Part shown: piece by piece, positions 676 through 5,610 of the stretch | Layout: each line of letters starts with the position of its first letter | How positions within the stretch are numbered: the first letter of the stretch is position 1 | NCBI GenBank assembly: GCA_001873285.1 | Contig: MNYV01000140.1 | Coordinates: 1 to 5,610 of the forward strand | DNA: 5,610 nt | Direction of reading: 5' to 3' | Source of the DNA: Nitrospirae bacterium CG2_30_53_67 | GTDB taxonomy: Bacteria > CG2-30-53-67 | Program-made: the position numbers and the translations under genes | The notes under the pieces: model-generated | Seen by the model: the letters and a program-made list of their open reading frames with translations, nothing else | Database searches by the model: none | Told to the model about the DNA's origin: nothing

Positions 676-907
676 AAAACCAATGATAATCCGTGTAGTT
701 GTATGATATGCCTCAAGACTTTCATGAATAATGTTCTGCTTGACATTCCTGCTCAAGAATATATATTTGTGAATCCCAAGGTAATGACTCTCCACCCGCA
801 TAATGGGTGGTATCAGGAAGCCCTCCAGAGGGGGGCATTGACCCAAAACAAACTCAGTGGCCAGCCAAAACGCCATGCTGTACCGCAACAGAAATCGTAA
901 CCCGTTT

Positions 908-973
908 GTCATTGTCCGGCTTGACCGGACAATCCAGTATGTTCTGGATTCCCCGATCAAGTCGGGGAATGAC
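908..973. repeat. REP-like triple-hairpin palindrome (66 bp)
   Basis: Three back-to-back hairpins make one imperfect palindrome. Hairpin 1 pairs ATTGTCCGG (911-919) with CCGGACAAT (925-933) around the loop cttga. Hairpin 2 pairs AATCCAG (931-937) with CTGGATT (944-950) around tatgtt. Hairpin 3 pairs ATTCCCCGA (948-956) with TCGGGGAAT (962-970) around tcaag. GTC and GAC close the outside (908-910, 971-973). The left 30 bases (908-937) and the reverse complement of the right 30 (944-973) match at 24 positions. The sequence resembles the widespread GTCATTCCC...GGGAATCCAG intergenic repeats of many proteobacteria, which I recall as REP/MITE-like. No second copy is in this window. Confidence 0.8.
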
Positions 974-1003
974 GGTGTTTTTGATTCATCACGAAGTGTA
1001 TAT

Positions 1004-1030
1004 TTGCCGTCCCATCTGATGTGCTATAAA
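1004..1030 (+). promoter_or_regulatory. Possible weak promoter for the SRPBCC gene
   Basis: TATAAA (1025-1030) is a good -10 box. The best -35 candidate, TTGCCG (1004-1009), matches four of six bases but with a short 15-bp spacer. If real, the transcript would have a leader of about 200 nt carrying the 1046-1096 inverted repeat and repeat copy A. Weak evidence; no better plus-strand promoter was noticed nearby. Confidence 0.3.
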
Positions 1031-1045
1031 CTTTTCCACTCTTAC

Positions 1046-1096
1046 ATAGGCTCTTCCTCCTGCTCCATTCAAGGCTTTCCCAGAGGAAGAGCCTAT
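1046..1096 (+). promoter_or_regulatory. 14-bp perfect inverted repeat in the leader region; possible attenuator or terminator
   Basis: ATAGGCTCTTCCTC (1046-1059) is perfectly complementary to GAGGAAGAGCCTAT (1083-1096), leaving a 23-nt loop. The sequence after the stem, CTTATTTCTCC, is pyrimidine-rich but not a clean T-run, so it is a poor intrinsic terminator. A smaller hairpin (CCCGGA 1107-1112 with TCCGGG 1126-1131) follows directly. Position between the possible promoter and the SRPBCC gene suggests a leader structure; a protein-binding palindrome is equally possible. Confidence 0.45.
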
Positions 1097-1140: not shown

Positions 1141-1228
1141 AGTGGTACGTCACAAGGAGAGGAACGCAGATGAGACCGCCCTACGACCCTCTCGGTACGT
1201 CACCATATTTACGAACAGGACCACTAAG
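1141..1228 (+). repeat. Dispersed repeat copy A, abutting the SRPBCC ribosome-binding site
   Basis: This is the first of three copies of a repeat of about 85 bp. Its 3' part, 1169-1225, matches the reverse complement of copy B (4043-4099) with three mismatches in 57 bases. Its full length aligns more loosely with copy C (4125-4208), sharing GCCCTACGACCCTC and TATTTACGAA.AGG.CCACTAAG. GGTACGTCAC occurs twice within it, at 1144-1153 and 1194-1203. Its ends can pair (AGTGGT 1141-1146 with ACCACT 1220-1225). It ends in CCACTAAGGAG, so the last bases form part of the ribosome-binding site of the next gene. Confidence 0.8.
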
Positions 1229-1235
1229 GAGAAAA

Positions 1236-1871
1236 ATGCATTTAAAGCCGCCTCAAAAAACTATCATGCTCGTCAGCCTGATGCTTCTTCTGATCCTCTG
1301 CAAGGTTCCTTTTTCATCGGAATTCTCCTATGCGGAGGTTCTCCGGCTTGAGAATATGAGTTATCATATTATGGACACGGATCAACCCGGCATTAAAAAA
1401 TACACCATGGAGGCCGACTTCAAGGGGACCAGGGACCAGGTCTGCGGGGTCATCTGCGACTACTATCACCTCAATACCTATATGCCCAAAGAGTTCGACT
1501 CGAAGGTCTTAAAACAAGATTCGAACCGGATTACTCTAAATGTCACTTTGGACATCCCGTGGCCCTTTGAGGATCTCAAGAGCATCCTCCTGATCAACTA
1601 TGACAAAGACAAAGGGAAAGCACGCTGGAAACTGATCGGCGGGAACATCAAAAAAAATGACGGGACCATCGAGGTTGAACAGCGCGGGGAAACCTCACAT
1701 GTCGTACAGACCACCTATCTCGATATCGGGCGGTATTACCCGGACTGGTTTATTGTGATCTATGCCCGTTCGCTGACTTACAAGGTGATGCGCGCCATGA
1801 GGGCACAGATCGAGACCGAGACCTCAGGAATGGATAGGCGTCAGGAACCCGTTCCCGCGGCCGGACCTTGA
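1236..1871 (+). CDS. Exported SRPBCC/START-like (polyketide cyclase-type) protein
   Basis: This 211-residue protein looks like a periplasmic member of the SRPBCC (START/Bet v1-like) superfamily, which binds hydrophobic ligands in a deep cavity; the ligand is unknown. Residues 1-33 form a signal peptide: basic start, a very hydrophobic stretch at about 10-25, and a plausible cleavage after SYA. Cys22 does not sit in a lipobox. The mature part carries the family pattern: an early strand and helix (TMEADFKGTRDQVCGVICDY, 57-76), central strands with VTLDIPWPFEDLKSILLI (103-120), the WKLIGG strand, and a C-terminal amphipathic helix (about 171-192). I chose ATG 1236 because AAGGAG (1226-1231) lies 4 bases ahead and the signal peptide begins there; an upstream in-frame ATG at 1170 lies inside repeat copy A. 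The polar tail after residue 194 looks disordered. Superfamily call is fairly sure, function open. Confidence 0.82.
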   Translation: MHLKPPQKTIMLVSLMLLLILCKVPFSSEFSYAEVLRLENMSYHIMDTDQPGIKKYTMEADFKGTRDQVCGVICDYYHLNTYMPKEFDSKVLKQDSNRITLNVTLDIPWPFEDLKSILLINYDKDKGKARWKLIGGNIKKNDGTIEVEQRGETSHVVQTTYLDIGRYYPDWFIVIYARSLTYKVMRAMRAQIETETSGMDRRQEPVPAAGP

Positions 1872-1883
1872 GTGAAAACATCA

Positions 1884-1999
1884 GGGGTCAAGGGTTCAAG
1901 GGTTCAAGTGAAATACTGATACCGGTAAACCGAGTACAAGAACGCAAGCAAAATCTCCAGAGAAAAACCTTTAAACCCTTCAACCTTTAAACCTTGCCC
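1884..1999. repeat. GGGTCAAG-type repeat element with inverted ends (copy 1)
   Basis: Starting 12 bp after the SRPBCC stop are three units GGGTCAAG, GGGTTCAAG, GGGTTCAAG (1885-1908), then TGAAA and an AT-richer middle. A degenerate inverted counterpart follows at 1968-1999 (CCTTTAAACCCTTCAACC... ending CCTTGCCC). The two ends can base-pair imperfectly, giving a long weak hairpin. The same arrangement, including the bases AGTGAAA and GGTAAAC in the middle, recurs after xerD. It fills most of the 177-bp gap to the next gene. No clear promoter or T-run terminator is visible here. Confidence 0.65.
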
Positions 2000-2841: not shown

Positions 2842-3729
2842 ATGGAACAGCACATTCATGAGTTCCTCCATTTCATCCGAATCGAAAAAGGGCTCTCGAA
2901 CAATACGGCGGAGGCCTACCGCAGGGACCTGACACATTTTTCTGAGTTTCTCAAGGGCCAGGGGATCCATAAGGCCGCGAAGATAGACCGCAGGGCGGTC
3001 CTTTCCTATCTGATTCAGATCAAACGATCAGGATTGAATCTCTCCACGGTCCGGCGAAGACTGGTCAGTATCCGGATGTTTTTCCGTTTCCTGATTCAGG
3101 AAGGACGAATCCAGACGGACCCTGCCGAAAACATCGAGTCCCCCAAAACAATCCAGTACCTCCCGCAGACCCTGACTCCCGCAGAAGTGGAGAGCCTCCT
3201 CCGCACACCGGACACGGAATCACCCCTTGGGAAGCGGGACCGGACCATGCTGGAGGTCCTCTATGCCACGGGACTTCGCGTGAGTGAACTGGTTTCCTTG
3301 AAAAACTCGGATATCAACCTTGAAGTCGGATATCTGATCACCATGGGAAAGGGGGGAAAAGAGCGTCTGGTCCCCATGGGTGATTCGGCCCAGGGATGGA
3401 TCAGGGATTTTCTATCGCATGACCGGCCCAGAATATTGAAATCGCGCCGGAGCGATTTTCTTTTTCCCAACCGGTTCGGAAATAGGATGAGCCGTCAGTG
3501 GTTTTTTAAGATCATCAAGAAATATGCCCTCCAGTCGGGTATCCGCAAGGAGATATCCCCTCATACACTCCGGCATTCCTTTGCCAGCCATCTTCTTGAA
3601 AACGGAGCGGATCTTCGATCCGTCCAACTCATGCTCGGACATGCGGATATCTCCACCACACAGATCTATACCCACGTCACAAAAGAACGGCTCAAAAAAG
3701 TTTTCGATAAATTTCACCCAAGGGCATGA
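2842..3729 (+). CDS. xerD: Site-specific tyrosine recombinase XerD-like
   Basis: The product is a 295-residue tyrosine recombinase that with a XerC partner would act at dif sites to resolve chromosome dimers, with FtsK at the septum. The N-terminal SAM-like core-binding domain spans about 1-90 (IEKGLSNNTAEAYRRDL). The catalytic domain carries all conserved residues: Arg146 (ATGLRVSE), Lys170 (GKGGKERLVP), His241 and Arg244 (SPHTLRHSFASH), His267 (LGHADISTTQ) and nucleophile Tyr276. Residue spacing closely matches E. coli XerD, and the ending TQIYTHVTKERL...FHPRA is more XerD- than XerC-like. I chose ATG 2842: the upstream stop overlaps a GGTGA ribosome-binding site (2830-2834) and this gives standard length; an in-frame ATG at 2788 lies inside the previous gene. 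A housekeeping role is most likely, though the gene sits next to a segment framed by inverted repeats. Confidence 0.93.
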   Translation: MEQHIHEFLHFIRIEKGLSNNTAEAYRRDLTHFSEFLKGQGIHKAAKIDRRAVLSYLIQIKRSGLNLSTVRRRLVSIRMFFRFLIQEGRIQTDPAENIESPKTIQYLPQTLTPAEVESLLRTPDTESPLGKRDRTMLEVLYATGLRVSELVSLKNSDINLEVGYLITMGKGGKERLVPMGDSAQGWIRDFLSHDRPRILKSRRSDFLFPNRFGNRMSRQWFFKIIKKYALQSGIRKEISPHTLRHSFASHLLENGADLRSVQLMLGHADISTTQIYTHVTKERLKKVFDKFHPRA

Positions 3730-3738
3730 AGGTGATTT

Positions 3739-3870
3739 GGGGTCAAGGGGTCAAGGGGTCAAGGGTCCGAGTGAAAAGCTTAGCAAGTAGCCGAGGGGTA
3801 AACATATCAAAAACCCCGGGGGTAGGCGAGATGATAGAAGAATACCTAAATCAAAAAAACACTTGACCCC
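3739..3870. repeat. GGGGTCAA tandem array with inverted end (copy 2)
   Basis: Nine bases after the xerD stop begin three perfect 8-bp units GGGGTCAA (3739-3762), then GGGTC and GAGTGAAA. An inverted CTTGACCCC (3862-3870) closes the element and is also the outer end of the 70-bp inverted-repeat arm. The order (array, AGTGAAA, GGTAAAC at 3797-3803, inverted end) parallels the element at 1884-1999, so the two are probably members of one dispersed family. The perfect units here suggest recent expansion by slippage. Confidence 0.65.
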
Positions 3871-3931
3871 TGGAATCCTCGGCCCCTTTTTACACACTAA
3901 ATGGCCGATGGCTCGTAGAGGAGAAGAACCG
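3862..3931 (+). repeat. Left arm of a perfect 70-bp inverted repeat
   Basis: All 70 bases equal the reverse complement of 5536-5605; identity stops at exactly these limits on both sides. The arm starts CTTGACCCCTGG and ends GAGAAGAACCG. It contains a small internal hairpin (TCGGCC 3879-3884 with GGCCGA 3903-3908) and an AGGAG motif. It points inward, toward the MerR gene, as the other arm points toward the RodZ-like gene. Identity was checked base by base. Confidence 0.95.
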
Positions 3932-3955
3932 CTTTTTTAGTAGATTTCTTTCTCA

Positions 3956-3984
3956 TTGACAGTAGATGTTTTTTGTTTTATAAA
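3956..3984 (+). promoter_or_regulatory. Near-consensus sigma70 promoter for the MerR gene
   Basis: TTGACA (3956-3961), a 17-bp T-rich spacer, and TATAAA (3979-3984) make an almost ideal vegetative promoter. Transcription would start near 3991, leaving a leader of about 240 nt before the GTG start at 4230. That leader contains the complete B/C inverted repeat pair. Some MerR-family promoters have 19-20-bp spacers; this one has 17, so there is no sign in the spacing of classical MerR-type distortion control. Confidence 0.75.
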
Positions 3985-4042
3985 TATAGGTAACTTAAAT
4001 CTGTAGTTGTTATGTAATTTGTTTGTAGTAATTCATCGGCCA

Positions 4043-4121
4043 AGTGGTCCTGTTCGTAAATATGGTAGCGTACCGAGAGAGTCGTAGGGCGGTCTCATCA
4101 GACGCGCGACTGAGGCGTACC
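4043..4121 (-). repeat. Dispersed repeat copy B (inverted relative to A and C)
   Basis: Read on the minus strand, the 57 bases 4099-4043 match copy A (1169-1225) with three mismatches. The rest, up to GGTACG at 4121-4116, is more diverged. It lies head-to-head with copy C, the pair being joined by GTACC (4117-4121) and GGTAC (4127-4131) around a 5-base spacer, so B and C together form one large imperfect palindrome within the MerR leader. Confidence 0.8.
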
Positions 4122-4124
4122 CCT

Positions 4125-4208
4125 CTGGTACACCGCAAGGAGCGGAACTTTGATCCGGCTGCCCTACGACCCTCGAATACGACCGTATTTACGAATAGGG
4201 CCACTAAG
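4125..4208 (+). repeat. Dispersed repeat copy C, abutting the MerR ribosome-binding site
   Basis: Aligned with copy A it keeps CTGGTAC, GCAAGGAG-GGAAC, GCCCTACGACCCTC, TATTTACGAA and CCACTAAG, with more divergence and a two-base gap. Like copy A, it ends a few bases before an AAGGAG ribosome-binding site, in the same orientation toward the gene. Its outer end can pair with the outer end of copy B (AGTGGTCCTGTTCGTAAATA, 4043-4062, against 4186-4205, with few mismatches). Confidence 0.75.
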
Positions 4209-4229
4209 CTCAAAAGGAGAAATGACTTC

Positions 4230-4640
4230 GTGACAAACAAAAATAAGATTGATCAACAGGCCTTGTACACCATCGGTGTGGCCTCCGAACTCATTGGAAC
4301 CACAGATCAGACACTTAGGCTCTATGAAAAACACGGGCTCATCAAACCCGCCCGCCGCGGCAAGAATCGGTTTTTTTCCAACAATGACATCCAGTGGATG
4401 AGATGTATACGGGACATGATCCATACGGAGAAAATCAGCATCGAAGGAATCAAAAGGCTTCTGGACTATGCCCCATGCTGGGAGATCAGGCGGTGCCCGA
4501 GCCATGTCAAGGAATCCTGTTCCGCGTTCAAGGAACCGAACAGGCCGTGCTGGGAACTCACCAAAGGGAGTTGCAGTGAAAACGGCAAGGACTGCGACCA
4601 CTGCATCGTCTATATAGCCCGGACCCGTAAAAAAGCCTGA
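4230..4640 (+). CDS. MerR-family transcriptional regulator with Cys/Trp-rich C-terminal domain
   Basis: This is a 136-residue DNA-binding regulator. The N-terminal winged helix-turn-helix (about 12-80) has the MerR hallmarks YTIGVASELIGTTDQTLRLYE, HGLIKPAR and ISIEGIKRLL, closest in style to the HspR/GlnR type. The usual long dimerisation coiled coil is missing. Instead there is a compact tail with two Cys-Trp-Glu motifs and seven cysteines: 83, 89, 97, 107, 115, 122 and 125 (CWEx3C, CWEx5C, CxxC). This resembles the two-CW-type module found in deltaproteobacterial signalling proteins; metal or redox sensing is my inference. GTG 4230 is chosen because AAAAGGAG (4212-4219) lies 10 bases ahead; the frame stays open upstream only by running through repeats B and C. 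The gene converges on the RodZ-like gene with a 17-bp gap and no visible terminator. Confidence 0.88.
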   Translation: MTNKNKIDQQALYTIGVASELIGTTDQTLRLYEKHGLIKPARRGKNRFFSNNDIQWMRCIRDMIHTEKISIEGIKRLLDYAPCWEIRRCPSHVKESCSAFKEPNRPCWELTKGSCSENGKDCDHCIVYIARTRKKA

Positions 4641-4657
4641 AGGGTGTCCGTTGCATT

Positions 4658-5497
4658 CTATGGACTTCCCTCCAGATCCTTTCTCGTCAGCACATAATTC
4701 TTTATAACCTGTCCGGAGCTTCCGAACGGGCCCAAGGTTTTGCCGTTGGCCCGAAGCACAAGGCCCCCTGCATTCCCGATGTTGAGCCGGATGGATTCCA
4801 CCATCTTCAAACGGACTTCTTGGCCGGGCCGGATGATCAGATCATGGTGTTCTTTCCCGTCCAGATCGCAGGAGACCCATGTCTGAGCACGGGCGGATAG
4901 AATCATTTCAATCGGAGCCGGGGAGGGAGCGGCCGGTTCCGTCTGCGGCCCCTCTGCCCTGTTCTGTGGAACGGGCGGGGCCTCCTCTTTTCCCGGTATG
5001 GGAACCTCTTTCGTCTCTTTGTTCACCTTCGACTCCGGGGATGAAACGGACTTTTCAATCCCGCCCTGCTGCAGGGATGGATGCTGAGAGGACGCCTCCC
5101 TCCACCTCCAAAGACCATACCCCGAAGCCATAACAACCGCCGCGGCCAGAAGAGCGGTCAAGATCCAAAGGATCATGGACCTTTTCTTATTCTTACTGAC
5201 GGCGCCGGTCCCGGGGAGATCCATACCAGCCGCCTGCGAATTTCCGGAGGAATCCTTGGCCTTCCGGTATTCCTGATACCGCAGGATAGCCTCGTCCGCG
5301 TCCAGACCGATGTAATTGGCGTAGCTCCGTATGAACCCCTTTGTAAAAACCTCTGCCGGGAGCCTGGATTCGTTGTCTTCTTCTATGGCCTCAAGGTAGC
5401 GGTAGCTGACCTTGGTTTCATCAGAGATCTCTCTTAACGAGATCTCTCTCAGTTCCCGCTCGCTTTTCAGGTACTCGCCGAAAGAAGTCATTTCCAT
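4658..5497 (-). CDS. rodZ: RodZ-like protein: HTH domain, one membrane helix, C-terminal DUF4115-type domain
   Basis: The 279-residue protein matches the RodZ architecture; in rod-shaped cells RodZ links MreB filaments to the membrane-bound elongation machinery. A cytoplasmic Xre-type helix-turn-helix (about 5-75) has SFGEYLKSERELREISLREI and the RodZ-typical LPAEVFTKGFIRSYANYIGLD. A basic stretch (KNKKR) precedes one transmembrane helix at about 108-128. Then comes a Pro/Glu/Lys-rich periplasmic linker (about 135-195) and a beta-rich C-terminal domain (about 197-275: WVSCDLDGKE, IRPGQEVRLK, GNAGGLVLRANGK). Two starts fit: ATG at 5497-5495, and ATG at 5491-5489, for which AAAGG lies 6 bases ahead; I give the longer form. 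No mreB is in view. The 70-bp repeat arm ends 39 bp upstream, so promoter elements may lie in it. Confidence 0.87.
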   Translation of the reverse strand: MEMTSFGEYLKSERELREISLREISDETKVSYRYLEAIEEDNESRLPAEVFTKGFIRSYANYIGLDADEAILRYQEYRKAKDSSGNSQAAGMDLPGTGAVSKNKKRSMILWILTALLAAAVVMASGYGLWRWREASSQHPSLQQGGIEKSVSSPESKVNKETKEVPIPGKEEAPPVPQNRAEGPQTEPAAPSPAPIEMILSARAQTWVSCDLDGKEHHDLIIRPGQEVRLKMVESIRLNIGNAGGLVLRANGKTLGPFGSSGQVIKNYVLTRKDLEGSP

Positions 5498-5535
5498 CCT
5501 TTGTATTCCTTGATACCGGATCTGTGATTGATATT

Positions 5536-5605
5536 CGGTTCTTCTCCTCTACGAGCCATCGGCCATTTAGTGTGTAAAAAGGGGCCGAGGATTCCAGGGG
5601 TCAAG
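5536..5605 (-). repeat. Right arm of the perfect 70-bp inverted repeat
   Basis: It is identical over all 70 bases to the reverse complement of 3862-3931. It lies in the upstream region of the RodZ-like gene, reading toward that gene. On the minus strand it carries TTGACC, close to a -35 box, but no good -10 at proper distance. Its outer end GGGGTCAAG continues at the window edge into GATTC, suggesting another GGGTCAAG-type array just outside. Confidence 0.95.
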
Positions 5606-5610
5606 GATTC

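Follow-up and report, generated by a model that had tools for sequence, protein, structure and literature searches.

In the 5,610-nucleotide stretch of DNA analysed here (the window, which is contig C140 of the 2.36 Mb, 183-contig draft genome of Nitrospirae bacterium CG2_30_53_67), positions 3862–3931 on the plus strand and 5536–5605 on the minus strand are complementary at 70 of 70 nucleotides across a spacing of 1604 nt, a correspondence far beyond chance. Between these two arms lie a gene for a MerR-family regulator and rodZ, in convergent orientation. The question raised by the locus is whether the arms frame a discrete merR-rodZ cassette or owe their symmetry to something more general, and the original prediction left a shared control sequence, the ends of a mobile or invertible cassette, and two copies of a dispersed repeat side by side. 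As detailed below, the arms are very probably the right ends of two copies of a non-autonomous element, a MITE of the ISL3 type with about 100 copies in the genome, whose copies keep a preferred orientation relative to the neighbouring genes.

Results

The window carries the following features.

1143–1235, minus strand: incomplete family-2 MITE copy ahead of the ORF at 1236 (matches 4043–4099 in inverted orientation over 57 nt at 95%)
1871–1995, plus strand: third MITE copy, reduced to a left and internal remnant (it shares GTGAAAACATCAGGGGTCAAGG and CAAGTGAAATACTGATACCGG... with other copies)
2842–3729, plus strand: tyrosine recombinase gene of xerD type, with its end ahead of copy A (TIGR02225, 1e-114)
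3739–3930, plus strand: MITE copy A, approximate extent, left terminus lost, with 8-bp units at 3739–3765 (tandem repeat; inverted 28-nt match to 3859–3886; comparison with the sister genome)
3862–3930, plus strand: copy A of the MITE, right end in the long form, which includes CCGATGGCTCGTAGAGGA (70/70 to 5536–5605; right-end family alignment; ends GAACC, then the flank GCTTTTTT)
4043–4205, plus strand (query orientation): family-2 palindromic MITE copy, 163 bp, just upstream of the merR-like gene (40 scored copies, 86–100% identity)
4230–4640, plus strand: MerR-family regulator, HspR-like (Pfam MerR_1, 3e-17; best NCBIfam model HspR, below its cut-off)
4658–5497, minus strand: rodZ (Pfam HTH_25 and RodZ_C)
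5537–5610, minus strand: copy B of the MITE, right end, truncated where the contig stops and continued in contig C85 (overlap with C85:1–235)

The third-copy remnant follows an ORF that ends at 1871 and precedes a nitrilase gene that starts at 2049. Contig C85 of the same genome, positions 1–235 of which overlap window positions 5376–5610 with 3 mismatches in 235, continues past the overlap with more 8-bp units, a TPR gene ending at C85:406, and pfkB- and mtnP-like genes (the TPR, pfkB and mtnP genes were named by eye from their protein sequences, without a family search). The two contigs can be joined through this 235-base overlap, and the assembly break lies inside the repeat. No Rfam family matched the window.

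A dispersed repeat family

Searched against its own genome, the 70-mer gave 46 matches, ten or so of them near full length at 88–94% identity, besides the two arms and the overlapping contig at 99%. A pattern search of the whole genome recovered 85 short-form and 16 long-form right ends together with 94 left ends (GGATCATCTCCAAAAGAGTGGGTGAAAAC), and reversed control patterns gave 0 matches in the same whole genome. With identical patterns, the sister genome (G001) yielded 15 left ends, and of its right ends 13 were of the short form and 2 of the long. Among 60 genomes, its own counted, the 70-mer matched 3 (its own, the sister and, weakly, G005), all of one family. The genome-wide search for the 70-mer had been proposed beforehand, and its outcome, many copies beside unrelated genes, identifies a dispersed repeat; the reading of the arms as two copies of such a repeat is therefore borne out, at about 100 copies genome-wide.

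The aligned copies bound an element with the left end GGWTCATCTCCAAAAGAGTGGGTGAAAAC and the right end ...TTTTTACCCACTAAATGG(CCGATGGCTCGTAGAGGA)GAGAAGAACC, where the right terminus GAGAAGAACC is common to the aligned copies and is followed by unrelated AT-rich sequence. One subfamily, the long form, has the 18 additional bases CCGATGGCTCGTAGAGGA, and both arm copies of the window belong to it. Terminal inverted repeats are present and imperfect (GGATCATCTCCAAAAGAGTGGGTGAAAA versus GGTTCTTCTCCCATTTAGTGGGTAAAAA; consensus GGWTCWTCTCC...AGTGGGT). Complete copies (n=58 with both ends) measure 83–426 bp and contain no transposase; their core is a variable number of degenerate 8-bp units (CTTGACCC, CTTGAACC, CTGGAATC and CTCGGCCC), whose arrangement lets the whole element fold back on itself. 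A 125-nt copy folds with a z of about −6.5 on either strand, and the 70-mer taken alone showed no notable folding (z of −1.4 and −0.8). An additional hairpin module (CCCCGTTAGAGAG...CTCTCTAACGGGG) is present in some copies (L018, L025, L038, and C85 (L083) at about 240–275), and the internal modules of other copies are different again, such that the core of the element is a mosaic.

Agreement among the flanks reaches 16–21 of 25 copies per position across exactly eight bases and is low beyond them. An 8-bp target duplication matching at 7/8 or better was found in 29 of the 58 complete copies, 15 of them exact, against a permutation mean of 1.5 and a maximum of 9 in 20,000 permutations; the other half of the complete copies show no clear duplication. 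The duplicated sequence is 88% A+T, with a core (AWWT) that is close to palindromic. Within the window no target duplication can be demonstrated, since copies A and B are both without a left terminus.

Parentage of the element

Elements of the ISL3 family have ends beginning with GG. For an ISL3-like element, 8-bp AT-rich duplications have been reported (PMC5559704). The sister genome holds one decayed, partial ISL3 transposase (PF01610; NCBIfam ISL3 family, 7e-60), and the upstream end of this copy, the only one that is recognisable, reads GGGTCTTCTCCCAAACGAGTGGGTA. Used separately, the two MITE ends (the right in its short form) pick the same site as their best match in 6.8 kb, 100–310 bp upstream of that transposase and at about 20 of 24 bases each. 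In two other relatives within the family, the ends of the ISL3 elements do not convincingly resemble those of the MITE. We assign the element to the ISL3 type on the basis of its 8-bp AT-rich duplications, its GG ends and the apparent similarity of its ends to the one recognisable terminus at the sister ISL3 transposase. Given that the decayed sister relative has a matching end and that the PF01610 domain was not found in the 183-contig draft of the own genome, we infer that an ISL3 transposase may have moved the elements in trans. The negative result for PF01610 also counts against an ISL3 parent, as a recently active element would be expected to have its transposase in the host, although this does not strictly define a MITE. 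ISL3 insertion sequences and their derivatives likewise have terminal repeats starting with GG, and the 8-bp AT-rich target duplication (PMC5559704) is a further shared feature, whereas the repeat described here is short, is without a transposase and has a core of 8-bp units, its parent copy not having been found in its own genome. Another repeat (CAAGGCTTGGGGGGTCAGGTCTTGCGGCTTGCA) flanks the decayed sister ISL3 copy on both sides (L103, at about 1245–1300 and 2740–2811).

Identity of the two arms

The 70-mer comprises 69 bp of the element's right end and one chance base. The right terminus falls on base 3930 in copy A and 5537 in copy B, and the next base (3931 and 5536) is a G that two different flanks happen to have in common, past which the sequences diverge (GCTTTTTT at copy A, GAATATCA at copy B). 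At the other end, 3862 and 5605, the copies diverge in the number and kind of their 8-bp units. The arms do end there, as was originally noted, yet the abruptness has ordinary causes: the terminus of the element on one side and divergence of the 8-bp units on the other, with the contig itself stopping at 5610.

The description of a perfect 70-bp inverted repeat stands as far as the printed 70/70 goes, but literal 100% identity is doubtful, because the overlapping contig has a different base inside the 70-mer. One of the three mismatches between the contigs falls there, where C85 reads ACCCACT, the usual family form, and both C140 arms read ACACACT, with a private base; the remaining two fall outside the repeat. 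That the reads of one copy completed the contig end at the other, making the perfect identity an artefact of assembly, stands evenly poised as an account of the 100% figure alone, and does not conflict with the MITE reading. The contig end only 5 bases beyond the arm, and the private base shared by both arms where C85 has the family base, speak for such an artefact, whereas the two differences outside the repeat make strain variation possible and local gene conversion would look alike. The identity of the arms thus reflects shared element sequence and, in addition, gene conversion at the locus or else collapse of the repeat where the contig stops. A contig end can make a repeat match look perfect.

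Orientation relative to genes

A first crude count had already suggested that right ends face gene starts. The orientation count took in 98 distinct right ends, with genes called by a codon-usage model. In it the right end faces a gene start in 70 cases and a gene end in 10, and the left end faces a gene end in 56 and a gene start in 7. At tandem gene junctions the order gene end, element, gene start prevails by 48 to 2 (p about 2e-12). The distance from the right end to the start codon is usually 16–60 bp, and the left end often lies 0–20 bp past the stop codon of the upstream gene. Among the pairs split by the element, as named in a Pfam check of a sample of flanking genes, are prfA-prmC, cdaA-ybbR, ribE-ribBA and uvrB-uvrC. 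So consistent an orientation at tandem junctions, conserved operon pairs included, is unusual for a mobile element. In the sister genome 19 copies are co-oriented and 6 opposed, and the unrelated family-2 MITE of the same genome as the window showed no clear orientation bias in a small sample.

All three copies in the window obey the rule: the third follows the ORF ending at 1871, copy A lies after xerD and before merR, and copy B lies after the TPR gene (in C85) and before rodZ. Since merR and rodZ converge and each has its own upstream copy, copies A and B must be inverted relative to one another. The observation that both arms are directed inward, each upstream of one of the genes, was correct, and is an instance of a family-wide rule. 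A control role, if there is one, would belong to the repeat family as a whole and not to the merR-rodZ pair.

The locus in the sister genome

The sister genome has nitrilase-xerD-merR-rodZ-TPR-pfkB arranged and oriented just as here, and the 70-mer is absent there from both junctions. A short sequence resembling the 8-bp units follows xerD, CCCCGTTAGAGG lies between rodZ and the TPR gene, and in alignments the rodZ-TPR gap is about 64 bp in the sister and about 283 bp here. These remnants suggest that related insertions once stood at both sister sites and have mostly been lost since, pointing to old insertions with loss there, against fresh insertions here.

Discussion

A dispersed MITE accounts for the inverted repeat around merR and rodZ in an ordinary way, and what deserves further attention is the orientation rule. 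Of the target positions, the strongest (A3 and T6) are palindromic, and with a near-palindromic core (AWWT) insertion should not set orientation, although the A-richness of one strand leaves some latitude. As a palindromic target should not fix the orientation, what remains is selection, or an insertion bias invisible in the sequence. Of these we favour, tentatively and from a weak inference, an mRNA-level effect of the sense-strand hairpin: the fixed orientation may reflect selection on an RNA hairpin within co-transcribed mRNAs, exerted through processing, stability or partial termination. ERIC repeats offer a precedent in which orientation decides the effect on transcript cleavage (PMC2229807; PMC3049150). 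Terminator-like hairpins (−8 kcal/mol or below) occur on the sense strand in 22 of 58 copies versus 7 of 58 on the other strand; however, such hairpins on the sense strand would be harmful inside an operon, which counts against the mRNA-level step. An oriented intrinsic terminator was also considered and was not adopted, as most copies have no terminator-like hairpin that strong on either strand.

It is possible, if rather unlikely, that the bias stems from the insertion mechanism, through target asymmetry or the direction of replication or transcription, and involves no selection. The target flanks are A-rich on the element plus strand, with AAWT commoner than AWTT, as this would lead one to expect; nevertheless, the palindromy of the strongest target positions argues otherwise, the few opposed copies do not clearly retain the A-skew, and family 2 is without a clear bias in its small sample. 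Less probable still is the proposal that the right end provides the downstream gene with a promoter or a protein-binding site and that copies are kept for that purpose. The 70:10 preference for gene starts, mostly from 16–60 bp ahead, would suit it, and BrickBuilt, a MITE with promoters (PMC4596501), is a precedent; but sigma-70-like promoters at the right end did not exceed those in shuffled sequence, a comparison that covers sigma-70-type signals only, and many copies lie within classic operon pairs, for which a new promoter is unnecessary.

Returning to the mRNA-level effect, a broader extension of it, that the MITE family is in service as a standard sense-oriented RNA module between operon genes, found at tens of junctions in a 2.4 Mb genome with about 100 copies, is improbable; such a module would set the relative expression of upstream versus downstream genes. 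The orientation rule makes the question of whether hairpin repeats in operons are tolerated or used testable by transcript mapping.

The proposal of a mobile or invertible merR-rodZ cassette delimited by the arms has next to no standing: although the 70/70 inverted identity surrounds exactly two genes and a tyrosine recombinase gene (xerD) adjoins, merR and rodZ keep their place and orientation in the sister genome, where the arms are missing, about 100 further copies lie mostly by other genes, XerD is of the ordinary housekeeping type and occupies the same place in the sister too, and rodZ comes after three closely packed genes (in C85) from which only the element separates it. The comparison with a related genome had likewise been proposed beforehand, and the merR-rodZ unit proved neither absent, moved nor inverted; it is on this synteny that the invertible cassette is rejected. 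The two convergent genes said to be enclosed, for a MerR-family regulator and rodZ, are real, but they form no isolated unit, and the 70-mer around them is dispersed. An oriented dispersed repeat, with two copies before two convergent genes, can mimic a framed cassette.

Related repeats

As far as the literature searched shows, the repeat family is undescribed while belonging to a known kind, the MITE; we found no description of the repeat nor of ISL3-derived MITEs with such a core, which does not prove that none exists. BrickBuilt of Porphyromonas gingivalis similarly has an internal tandem-repeat core and many intergenic copies, but differs in its 23-bp units and other ends, and no orientation rule is noted in the accessible part of that account (PMC4596501). 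The ERIC/IRU repeats of enterobacteria (PMC2229807) are likewise palindromic, lie within transcripts and have an orientation-dependent effect on mRNA; they are unrelated in sequence, and the mRNA effect was tested for them, whereas for the repeat described here it is only inferred. The pneumococcal BOX, RUP and SPRITE repeats (PMC3049150) are also short, folded, mobile and intergenic, and BOX is modular, but they are enriched downstream of genes, in contrast to the present repeat, which lies upstream of genes at tandem junctions.

Two further observations concern other repeats. Family 2, which is unrelated to the 70-mer family, is a palindromic MITE of about 163–164 bp with the ends AGTGGYCCTRTTCGTAAATA and at least 40 copies in the own genome, most of which show a 3-bp TWA duplication within CTWAG, an IS5-like target. 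Window positions 900–1050 are intergenic and contain CATTGTCCGGCTTGACCGGACAATCCAGTATGTTCTGGATTCCCCGATCAAGTCGGGGAATGACGG, which is hairpin-like and possibly another dispersed repeat; positions 982–1050 are 90% identical to L080:957–1025 of the sister genome.
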